64,000 nucleotides of DNA from Acidimicrobiia bacterium (GTDB lineage: Bacteria > Actinomycetota > Acidimicrobiia > UBA2766). The notes beneath the pieces were generated by a model that was given only the letters and a program-made list of their open reading frames with translations, had not been told where the DNA came from and did no database searches. The translations under genes were made by a program, and so were the position numbers. Location of the stretch: contig JADZDR010000035.1 in the NCBI GenBank assembly GCA_020850945.1, positions 62,001-126,000 on the forward strand, given 5' to 3'. Numbering within the stretch: position 1 is the first letter of the stretch; each line of letters begins with the position of its first letter. Of the stretch, positions 24,718 through 59,686 are shown piece by piece.

Positions 24718-24756
24718 CGTGAGCCTGGGCCGGGCAGTGGGGCTTCCGCTACATCC

Positions 24757-24794
24757 GGGTACCTGAGCGGCGATATATCGCCGCTCAGGTACCC
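24757..24794. repeat. 38-bp perfect palindrome, copy 1
   Basis: GGGTACCTGAGCGGCGATA followed immediately by its exact reverse complement. It lies between the convergent ppk2 and tRNA-Glu genes, 39 bp and 32 bp from their 3' ends. Symmetry stops exactly at 38 bp here. The same 38 bp recur at 25309-25346, 55302-55339 and 56362-56399. Confidence 0.95.
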
Positions 24795-24826
24795 AGACCG
24801 GTCGGTGGGACGCTCGATGGTCTGAG

Positions 24827-25302: not shown

Positions 25303-25352
25303 AGGACTGGGTACCTGAGCGGCGATATATCGCCGCTCAGGTACCCAGTCCT
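25303..25352. repeat. Palindrome copy 2, extended to 50 bp
   Basis: The identical 38-bp core (25309-25346) is flanked by AGGACT on the left and AGTCCT on the right, which also pair, so symmetry reaches 50 bp. It lies 22 bp after the GlsB-like gene and 16 bp after the stop codon of the convergent GH31 gene, so it serves both 3' ends. Confidence 0.95.
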
Positions 25353-53203: not shown

Positions 53204-55255
<2,052 letters not shown>

Positions 55256-55298: not shown

Positions 55299-55342
55299 TC
55301 TGGGTACCTGAGCGGCGATATATCGCCGCTCAGGTACCCAGA
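55299..55342. repeat. Palindrome copy 3, extended to 44 bp
   Basis: The identical 38-bp core (55302-55339) is extended by TCT/AGA. It lies between the convergent parE and DUF559 genes. The last codons and the TGA stop of the DUF559 gene (55330-55332) are inside the palindrome. Confidence 0.95.
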
Positions 55343-56256
55343 CCGAGCGCACCGGTGAGTCTCTTCCGAAGTTCACGCGGCCGTCGGGTGAAATGCGTGA
55401 GGCGGACACGAATCACACGGAACCCGGCTGTACGCAGGTTCTCGTCCTTGAGCTGGTCGAACTGGCGTTGGTCCTCCAGATCGTGGATCCTGCTGTCGCA
55501 TTCGAGGATCACGCGCTCCTGTCGCCAGACGACGTCGCACTCGTACGTGCGTTGCGGCGTGACAACCCTCGCATTGAACTCCGGGCGGGGCAACGCCCAC
55601 TCCTCCAGAGCGCGGGCAGCGAGGATCTCGAAGGGTGAGCGGGCATCGGGCGCGGAGGCGGGCCGAGTCGCGGCGATCTCGATCACCTCCTTGGGACCGC
55701 GTCGTCCGAACTTCTTGAGCTCGAGGGCCCGCTCGAGGAGTCGGTCGGCCGTAGCCGCGCCGCGTCGGATCGACTCGTCGATGAGCAGCGTCAAGTGGGT
55801 GTGGGTGCAGGTGGGGGCGGCGTCTATCAGGGCGCGCTCCACGGTGGTGGTTCTCATCCCCCGCAGGACGCAGACATCGCTCTCGGGGAAGTCCCGCGTG
55901 CGGTGGACGACGAAATCGCGGGGGAGCCGATAACGCCGCGCGTGTTGCGTCACGACATGGGTTTGACTCGGAAAGGAAGTGAGACCCCGCAGCGCCAAGG
56001 CCGAGTGTTGGGCGAGAGCCCCGTCCGGTCTCAGCATGAGGGTTGCGGCGGTGCACTTGGCGAGGTCGGTCATGGGTTGGGTCGCGGAGACGAGGACACC
56101 GGGGTAGACCTCACGCCAGCGTCGGGTCGACACCTGGGTGCGGATCGTACGTCGCGGAACACCGAGAAGCACGAGCTGCTCCACGAGGATGATGCCGTGC
56201 TGACGCAGGGCGAGACGCGTGACGTCCAAGGGCAACGCTGCCGGCGGTGATTGCAT
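55330..56256 (-). CDS. AbiEi-like winged-helix plus DUF559 endonuclease-fold protein
   Basis: 308 residues. The N-terminus (L-A-L-R-Q-H-G-I-I-L-V-E-Q-L-V-L-L-G-V-P-R-R-T-I) is the AbiEi_4-type winged helix seen in type IV antitoxins. The C-terminus is a DUF559 domain of the Vsr/PD-(D/E)xK fold: Y-E-C-D-V-V-W as first acidic strand, V-I-L-E-C-D-S-R, then F-D-Q-L-K-D-E-N-L-R-T-A-G-F-R-V-I-R-V-R. Such proteins are common in actinobacteria, often alone and without known role. This one is bracketed by palindrome copies 3 and 4. Its final codons and TGA are read out of copy 3, giving the ending L-G-L-G-T. A GGGGGA Shine-Dalgarno lies in a hairpin just upstream. Confidence 0.82.
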   Translation of the reverse strand: MQSPPAALPLDVTRLALRQHGIILVEQLVLLGVPRRTIRTQVSTRRWREVYPGVLVSATQPMTDLAKCTAATLMLRPDGALAQHSALALRGLTSFPSQTHVVTQHARRYRLPRDFVVHRTRDFPESDVCVLRGMRTTTVERALIDAAPTCTHTHLTLLIDESIRRGAATADRLLERALELKKFGRRGPKEVIEIAATRPASAPDARSPFEILAARALEEWALPRPEFNARVVTPQRTYECDVVWRQERVILECDSRIHDLEDQRQFDQLKDENLRTAGFRVIRVRLTHFTRRPRELRKRLTGALGLGT

Positions 56257-56260
56257 GGGG

Positions 56261-56291
56261 TCCCCCAGAGGCAGTTGGAACTGCTGGGGGA
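56261..56291 (-). promoter_or_regulatory. Hairpin covering the DUF559 Shine-Dalgarno
   Basis: TCCCCCAG (56261-56268) pairs with CTGGGGGA (56284-56291). The inner CAGTT and AACTG also pair around GG, leaving a 3-nt bulge. On the minus-strand transcript the arm CTGGGGGA contains the GGGGGA ribosome site, 4 nt before the ATG. The folded RNA should hide it. Confidence 0.6.
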
Positions 56292-56307
56292 AGTCGAAGT
56301 GACACGT

Positions 56308-56313
56308 ACAGTA
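56308..56313 (-). promoter_or_regulatory. -10 box for the DUF559 gene
   Basis: TACTGT on the minus strand, 51 nt before the start codon. It would produce a leader that contains the Shine-Dalgarno hairpin. Confidence 0.4.
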
Positions 56314-56357
56314 AGGGAATGCGAGAACGTTGGCAACCCATGCGCAGTCTGGACGCA

Positions 56358-56403
56358 GTCTGGGTACCTGAGCGGCGATATATCGCCGCTCAGGTACCCA
56401 GAC
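56358..56403. repeat. Palindrome copy 4, extended to 46 bp
   Basis: The identical 38-bp core (56362-56399) is extended by GTCT/AGAC. It lies upstream of the DUF559 gene and at the 3' end of the ArsR gene, whose last codons and stop (56390-56392) are inside it. GCAGTCTGG occurs twice in direct orientation at its left edge (56345-56353 region and 56355-56363 region). Confidence 0.95.
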
Positions 56404-56749
56404 GGGGGGGTTCGAGGGAGGATGCCACGTCGCTGAGGACGTCGCAGCAGACGGAGTAGTAGGCCCAGTTCCCCCGCTGCTGCCGGGTCAGGACACCGGC
56501 CTGGCTGAGCACCTTGAGGTGATGCGAGACGGTCGGCTGCGCCAGTCCGAGAGGTTCGACCAGGTCACACGCGCAGACCTCACCTGTGGGGGAGGAGTTG
56601 ACGAGAGCCACGATCTGGAGCCGGGCGGGATCTGCGAGCGCCCGCAGAACGCCGGCCAGCTCCGCCGCCTGGCCACGCGTCAGCGGAGCCGAGAGCGGGT
56701 GACAGCAGGGGTGGGCTGGCGCGTCTCCGGTCTGAAGTCCTGTCGTCAT
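56390..56749 (-). CDS. ArsR/SmtB-family metalloid-sensing repressor
   Basis: 119 residues. Winged-helix core with L-G-L-A-Q-P-T-V-S-H-H-L-K-V-L as recognition helix. E-V-C59-A-C61-D-L is the alpha-3 C-x-C site of arsenite/antimonite-responsive ArsR. Further Cys pairs are C15-C16 and C101-C102. It probably represses a promoter in the gap to the SDR gene and lifts on metalloid binding. No arsenic efflux or reductase gene is adjacent, which is unusual. The last codons (R-L-G-T-stop) come from palindrome copy 4. Confidence 0.88.
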   Translation of the reverse strand: MTTGLQTGDAPAHPCCHPLSAPLTRGQAAELAGVLRALADPARLQIVALVNSSPTGEVCACDLVEPLGLAQPTVSHHLKVLSQAGVLTRQQRGNWAYYSVCCDVLSDVASSLEPPRLGT

Positions 56750-56794
56750 GACATTTCCCCGCGTGTGGTACTCCGAGGGCCCGACATAGATCTC

Positions 56795-58561: not shown

Positions 58562-59686
58562 TCACCGGTGGACGAAGATCGTGTCGGTCCAGCGGTCGAC
58601 GGCGCTCCTGCCGTCACGCATCGTCAGGACATAGAGGAATCCCAGGCCGCACGCGAGCATGGGGACCACGAGGAGGAGCGTGCGGGCGACTGCACGCCAG
58701 AAGCCGAGCCGCCTCCCGTCGGCGCGGAGGACCCTGAGCTTGAAGGCGCGCATGAAGAGCGTGCTGCCGGCTGTCGAGGCAGGAAGGGCCCAATAGAGGA
58801 GGAGTAAGAGGAGGGCAGAGGGCGCACCCACCCCCCAACCTGTGGCAAAGGCGCGGTCGTAGTCACCCGTGCTCTTGCATACCTCGCTGGCCTCGGGACA
58901 CTGGATCCAGAAGAGCCCCAGACCTACACCGGCCGAGAGCGCCACGACGAGCCAGAAGTCGAGCGCGAAGGCACCCATTCGAGACCCTGTGAGATCCGGT
59001 TGCCTCGGCTGCGGTGTGGGTGTGGGTGTGGGTGTGGGTGTGGGTGCCGGTTGGGGTGCCGGTTGGGGTTGGGGTGGGGGTGTCGCCTCGATCTCCGCGA
59101 GCAGCCTGTCGAGGTCGCTGTCGGGGTTGTTGTGGTCGATCACGAATGCGTGGCGGCGTGAGAGCGAGACGAGGTCGGGGGGGAGGAGGGAGGCGGGGGG
59201 CGGTTGTGCCCCGTCGATGAGGACGGGGATCGTCCGGATGTTGCGCTCGAGGGCGCGGGCGAGCTCGAGGCGGACGAAGTCGGCGGGGTCGTCGAGGCGC
59301 CGGTTCCCGTCGCGGTCACGCGCGTCGATCCAACCGGTGCCGATCACGGCGAGCATGACCTGGGTGCGTTCGAGGTACTCGTCGATGGTGTCGGCGAAGT
59401 CGTATCCGGGCCGGATCGTGCCCATGTCGAAGAACACCCGCTCGTTTCCGAACTCCTGCGTGAGACGATCACGGATGAGCTTGGCGGGCCAGCGGGTGTC
59501 GGCGTGCCTGTAGCTGATGAAGATGCAGTCGCGGCGAAACGCCTCGTGTGACGCCCCGGAGGAACGGGCTTGAACCGGGGCGGCTGCACCCGGTACGGGG
59601 GCCACGTGGCCGGTCCAGTTGTTCCCGTCCCAGTAGCGCAGGAGGGCCGGATCCGTGTCGTGGGCATACCAGCCTGGTTCGGTCAC
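58562..59686 (-). CDS. DUF2510-TIR-RDD fusion protein
   Basis: 374 residues in three parts. Residues 1-30 are a DUF2510 module (G-W-Y-A-H-D, R-Y-W-D-G-N-N-W-T). Residues ~53-185 are a TIR domain: C-I-F-I-S-Y-R-H-A-D, then V-F-F-D-M, then G-Y-D-F-A-D-T-I, and the putative NADase Glu E141 in V-R-L-E-L-A-R-A-L. A Pro/Thr/Gln linker (202-230) is encoded by a DNA hexamer repeat. Residues ~235-374 are an RDD membrane domain with about three TMs and the R-M-G-A-F-A-L-D-F and A-F-K-L-R-V-L motifs. TIR domains signal or degrade NAD in immunity; being tethered to an RDD membrane domain suggests an envelope-linked sensor. GTG start with GGGAGAGATC upstream. Confidence 0.85.
   Translation of the reverse strand: MTEPGWYAHDTDPALLRYWDGNNWTGHVAPVPGAAAPVQARSSGASHEAFRRDCIFISYRHADTRWPAKLIRDRLTQEFGNERVFFDMGTIRPGYDFADTIDEYLERTQVMLAVIGTGWIDARDRDGNRRLDDPADFVRLELARALERNIRTIPVLIDGAQPPPASLLPPDLVSLSRRHAFVIDHNNPDSDLDRLLAEIEATPPPQPQPAPQPAPTPTPTPTPTPQPRQPDLTGSRMGAFALDFWLVVALSAGVGLGLFWIQCPEASEVCKSTGDYDRAFATGWGVGAPSALLLLLLYWALPASTAGSTLFMRAFKLRVLRADGRRLGFWRAVARTLLLVVPMLACGLGFLYVLTMRDGRSAVDRWTDTIFVHR
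59013..59084. repeat. Hexanucleotide repeat with G-quadruplex potential
   Basis: Twelve 6-bp units: GGTGTG five times in a row, then variants GGTGCC, GGTTGG, GGTGGG and GGTGTC. On the minus strand they encode the Pro-Thr/Ala/Gln linker of the TIR-RDD protein. Five GGG runs separated by TGT (59018-59044) form a strong G-quadruplex motif on the plus (template) strand. Copy-number change would alter linker length without a frameshift. Confidence 0.85.

Follow-up and report, generated by a model that had tools for sequence, protein, structure and literature searches.

AbiEi-like winged-helix/Vsr-like nuclease genes of Acidimicrobiia are linked to their own palindromes and may form a RAYT-like system

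The TRIT elements of mycobacteria are sequence-uniform terminators, with many near-identical hairpins standing behind genes. RAYT genes, which belong with the REP and REPIN repeats, have orthologues that are less conserved than their neighbours and that keep their position while the repeats change and stay palindromic (PMC2817692). AbiEi, of the AbiE type IV toxin-antitoxin system, binds an inverted repeat that extends over about 49 bp (PMC3985639), and I-Bth0305I, a homing enzyme of the EDxHD type, reportedly dimerises on a target nearly 60 bp long (PMC3943268). The locus described here resembles each of these systems in part.

The window is the whole 64,000-nucleotide stretch that was analysed, from contig JADZDR010000035.1 of an Acidimicrobiia bacterium (genome G000), and all coordinates are positions in it. 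At 55330–56256, on the minus strand, an ORF with profile matches encodes a 308-aa protein with an AbiEi-type winged helix and a Vsr-like DUF559/MTES_1575 nuclease domain. Around it are two identical copies of an exact 42-bp palindrome, CTGGGTACCTGAGCGGCGATATATCGCCGCTCAGGTACCCAG, at 55300–55341 and 56360–56401; in dinucleotide shuffles no palindrome of this length is expected. The core is perfect in both, and more paired bases prolong the copies to 55299–55342 (copy 3) and 56358–56403 (copy 4). Copy 3 is 3' of the gene, between it and a convergent parE/gyrB-type topoisomerase gene (53246–55255, plus strand). Copy 4 is 5' of the gene, with some 100 bp between it and the start codon, and overlaps the end of a codirectional arsR-type regulator gene (56390–56761, minus strand). 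A sequence-only reading of this DNA had claimed this palindrome-gene-palindrome arrangement, and we found it; that reading also placed the gene exactly between the copies, but the 3' end of the gene enters copy 3 and draws its TGA stop from the palindrome (CTG GGT ACC TGA, read as LGT*). Copy 4 supplies the stop codon of arsR in the same way: the arsR protein ends PPRLGT* here and PPG*, without a palindrome, in the same-genus genome G001. We saw no empty parE–arsR site in contigs of the same genus, which stop about 90 bp past parE and about 280 bp past arsR. Scans of the focal locus for sigma-70 promoters and T-run terminators found nothing, and Rfam gave chance hairpin matches only, below the gathering score. 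Further along the window, 58562–59686 (minus strand) holds a 374-aa ORF whose middle reads as TIR-domain-like, with a proline/threonine-rich linker and a membrane part.

The focal ORF matches DUF559 above the cut-off and MTES_1575 and AbiEi_4 below it, the AbiEi_4 winged-helix region covering residues 12–54 (56095–56223, minus strand; E 7e-4, below the Pfam cut-off). PADLOC models of AbiEi match the focal protein at 5.7e-25 over residues 12–183, and they match all 24 of the members that we compared. The Vsr-like nuclease domain, at about residues 207–304 (55345–55638, minus strand), is placed by profile matches and invariant residues. Ten residues are invariant in the 24 aligned members (T137, R141, D145, G187, E210, D241, E252, D254, H258 and D267), and the last six of these are the predicted catalytic residues of the nuclease. 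The nearest solved sequences are 3hrl (endonuclease-like, 2.1e-8) and 3r3p ("Mobile intron protein", E 3.6e-5), followed by PvuRts1I. A Pfam scan of the 24 members returned MTES_1575, AbiEi_4 and DUF559, with minor AbiEi_1 and HTH_17 matches, and no HUH/Y1 transposase domain of the Transposase_17/IS200 type. The antitoxin-type winged helix joined to a Vsr/DUF559 domain, and the lack of a family link to RAYT, had both been read from the letters correctly.

The enzyme is therefore unrelated to RAYT, being an AbiEi winged helix with a Vsr-like nuclease in place of an HUH/Y1 protein. With AbiE it shares the N-terminal winged helix, but nearly all members have the C-terminal nuclease where AbiEi has its antitoxin domain, and the focal neighbours are parE and arsR, with no AbiEii toxin gene at the focal locus. 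Like I-Bth0305I and the EDxHD enzymes, it has a Vsr-type nuclease domain with conserved acidic and His residues (E252, D254, H258 and D267) and an added DNA-binding region. Unlike them, the gene is free-standing and chromosomal, not in an intron, and it is bracketed by complete palindromes.

We searched the class for homologues and found them in 50 of 149 genomes, which gave a usable set of 75 loci from 46 genomes. For each locus we compared the upstream and downstream flanks (350–400 bp) by ungapped matching; the placement of start codons is approximate, so the gene-repeat distances are rough. Homologues proved to be bracketed by a repeat of their own in 54 of the 75 loci at a score of at least 14, in 43 at a score of at least 20 (which we call strong) and in 28 at a score of at least 30. 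The controls were 303 other genes, alike in length, that came from these loci and from stretches of the family's genomes. Nine of these reach 14 and two reach 20; of those two, one reflects a run of N and the other a neighbour gene that picks up the DUF559 repeat. Mismatched pairs of flanks never scored above 13 in about 150 trials. The difference between homologues and controls has a Fisher p of about 1e-38, for loci that are not fully independent because of kinship, and strong cases occur in 33 of the 46 genomes. The strong shared repeats are palindromic in 31 of 43 cases (z of at least 3 against shuffles). They differ from gene to gene, and some stand in tandem on both sides (as at locus L294). 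The linkage of gene and repeat is real and general in the class, and in having two flanking palindromic repeats specific to the gene these loci are like RAYT/REP/REPIN. The sequence-only reading had asked whether palindromes occur widely in genomes without a DUF559 protein. This one does not: with 3 mismatches allowed over 32 bases, the focal palindrome is absent from 394 other genomes sampled in the class, same genus included, and its exact core had no match in the genome contig collection. That relatives keep the gene without these palindromes, the other sign named against linkage, is literally true, but most of them carry a different palindrome instead.

The clearest single case is G006, a single-contig genome whose only two copies of the palindrome stand one at each end of the DUF559 homologue. 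In G002, of the same family as the focal genome, a homologue on contig C27 (34% identity to the focal protein) is bracketed by two copies of that genome's own loopless palindrome, GGAGCATGGGGCGGCCACATGTGGCCGCCCCATGCTCC; we had retrieved this contig for its protein homologue and saw the bracketing afterwards. Thirteen copies of this palindrome lie within 3 mismatches of the query variant, and one symmetric position varies among them in a paired way (C-G, G-C and T-A). A pair of G002 homologues is 61% identical and both of their repeats begin GTTGGA. The own-genome paralogue of the focal gene at C32 is bracketed by a different palindrome, while C64 has another repeat and C93 a repeat upstream only. 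In G037 one repeat family is essentially limited to its locus and another is dispersed. We thus observed dispersed extragenic copies, as in RAYT/REP, in three genomes (56 in G000, 13 in G002 and several in G037). Because G006 has the pair only and one G037 family is essentially confined to its locus, dispersal appears to be a secondary property of some families. Unlike REPs, the DUF559 palindromes are about 40–55 bp long, some are loopless, and for some loci the bracketing pair are the only copies.

The repeat follows the protein. Seven homologue loci carry AACCCNGGGTT, an AACCC motif, in their flanks, and 731 kb of background stretches from G001–G003 hold none. On the protein tree, with 6 of these loci, the motif needs 3 changes against 5.9 when labels are shuffled, and none of 500 shuffles was as low. 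Five of the loci fall in one supported clade of six and the sixth in the sister clade; the remaining member of the clade, L295, has a one-base variant of the motif. The loci cluster in this way although their hosts belong to four families. We noticed this motif by eye before building the tree and it is the sole motif family formally tested; in it, protein and repeat change together.

Many homologues are at the same site in different genomes, across genera, beside genes that resemble ssrA, rarA, uvrB, ilvC, gatB and uppS (names assigned by eye from the sequence). The conserved sites of orthologues point to inheritance that was mainly vertical, with movement infrequent. Homologues are also less conserved than their neighbours in most of the testable ortholog pairs, with exceptions. 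As with RAYTs, then, the orthologues keep their site and evolve faster than the genes around them, and their repeats change yet stay palindromic. The DUF559 orthologues L240 (G000:C93) and L071 (G001:C434) are 79% identical over 220 residues and lie beside a tmRNA-like gene; their repeats are clearly different, and an GTGGGCAG-like core is common to both.

In the focal genome the palindrome had been taken as four copies, but the whole 3.9-Mb genome has 56 (up to 3 mismatches), most of them exact. The other two in the window are at 24755–24796, with one mismatch, where it follows a ppk2-like gene and precedes a convergent tRNA-like gene (two names given by eye), and at 25307–25348, where the outer arms (AGGA...TCCT) are unlike those of copies 3 and 4 and still pair. 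The true number is probably higher, because contigs break at or near the palindrome (C35, C37, C39, C40, C54 and C72). We took the context of 51 copies with a simple gene caller. Directly 3' of a stop codon are 43 of them: 14 separate convergent genes, 26 follow the leading member of a codirectional pair at no more than 77 bp from its stop, and 3 stand behind a gene at contig edges; 6 more are between divergent genes and 2 inside called genes. In 12 of the 51 the palindrome provides the neighbour's in-frame TGA stop, in the same register, and the proteins end LGT where checked (window 55330 and 56390, and loci L008, L010, L014, L024, L044, L052, L054, L055, L057 and L064). Outside the core the bases vary among copies yet pair: position 4 is paired in 45 of 51 copies against 30.5 expected, and positions 5 and 6 likewise exceed expectation. 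As RNA, the window copies have predicted folds of -38 to -50 kcal/mol. There are six close pairs of palindromes in the genome against about two expected. These palindromes look terminator-like, and they are like TRIT elements in being many near-identical hairpins behind genes. They are unlike TRIT elements in that the palindrome is linked to a nuclease gene, differs in sequence among relatives and is missing from the rest of the class sample. We also considered half sites of the DNA-uptake type and rejected them, as the 18-bp half is almost never alone and the exceptions are mainly contig ends.

Our main reading, to which we give a probability of roughly 0.55, is that the AbiEi-like winged-helix/Vsr-like nuclease loci are a widespread set tied to their own palindromes, with RAYT-like copying. 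The protein itself is best read as an endonuclease that would recognise its own palindromes and work like a RAYT or a homing endonuclease. Linkage as in REP/RAYT, suggested by the sequence-only reading, stands at the level of gene and repeat (54 of 75 against 9 of 303, with the motif following the clade); the protein likely recognises the palindrome, and cutting and propagation of the palindrome are plausible. At slightly under even odds we put an independently evolved REP-like system, convergent with RAYT/REP, in which a Vsr-type hydrolytic nuclease propagates its own palindromes and the dispersed copies are terminators.

The protein binding, cleavage, copying, mobility and terminator function that we infer would fit together as follows. 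A dimer of the protein would bind the palindrome of 42–50 bp with one winged helix per arm, a length that suits the protein given the AbiEi repeat of about 49 bp and the I-Bth0305I target of nearly 60 bp. The nuclease would then nick or cut the palindrome, or a hairpin or cruciform formed from it. Through copying during repair, the two bracketing copies would stay alike, and new ones would now and then be seeded elsewhere; RAYT enzymes are thought to copy or seed REPs in like manner. A hydrolytic nuclease joins no strands, so any spread of the palindrome would need host repair. The surviving dispersed copies would be those that landed behind genes, where a hairpin may be harmless or may even help, by ending transcription in both directions and supplying a stop codon. 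Several results weigh against the main reading. About 28% of the homologues are without a shared flank repeat, we saw no target-site duplication around the dispersed copies, and 54 of the 56 palindromes in the focal genome have no DUF559 gene near them. Dispersed copies are absent from G006, and in G151 a 107-kb sample holds no dispersed copy of AACCCNGGGTT.

We consider it unlikely that the palindromes are simply operators of an AbiEi-like repressor that controls its own gene, with no mobility and with the nuclease domain doing something else. AbiEi does repress its own promoter through a pair of inverted repeats (PMC3985639), and autoregulation would also explain why motif and clade agree. 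The upstream copy would then control the promoter, and the downstream copy would be a local duplication or would control the convergent neighbour. However, this leaves unexplained the downstream copies in 54 loci, the tandem copies on both sides at L294 and the 56 dispersed copies behind unrelated genes, and the focal upstream copy overlaps the end of arsR, some 100 bp away from the start codon.

The odds are lower still for a selfish gene of the homing-endonuclease kind, which would cut a cassette-free site and be copied in with its palindromic ends, the dispersed copies being remnants or something separate. The alignment of the nuclease domain with 3r3p, the dimer of I-Bth0305I on its long target (PMC3943268) and the G006 unit with palindromes at its two ends only are all in its favour. 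But orthologues hold the same sites across genera, a search of plasmids, phages and viral contigs found no relatives of the focal protein, and there is a complete palindrome on each side and not a split target site. Our first working hypothesis took the palindromes for ordinary gene-end terminators acting in both directions, with the gene between two of them by chance, and it fits the copies behind or supplying stop codons, the stable hairpins and the close pairs, but we dropped it as very improbable after G002:C27, the recurrence of bracketing with different sequences in 54 of 75 homologues against 9 of 303 controls, and the G006 palindrome that is nowhere else in its genome.

In the open-access literature, including that on Caulobacter VsrA, we found no mention of a link between DUF559 and palindromes. 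The bracketing of dozens of distant relatives suggests that a palindrome-tied nuclease system has gone unrecognised. For DUF559/MTES_1575 proteins with AbiEi-type heads, to which we found no function assigned, the likely DNA substrate can be predicted locus by locus from the flanks. Should the main reading hold, the tie between nuclease and palindrome evolved more than once, with unrelated enzymes, and one could test directly where the species-specific uniform palindromes behind genes come from.

Two other genomes had further repeats that we noted in passing. At L231 (G002:C92), about 0.6 kb 3' of parE, there are tandem GC-rich hairpins, CCGAACGCGGGC...GCCCGCGTTTGG, an intergenic pair that gives G002 a second type of repeat between genes. 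At L345 and L297, in G037, several TGAACCCAGGGCTC...GAGCCCTGGGTTCA units lie within 20 kb, like a BIME array.
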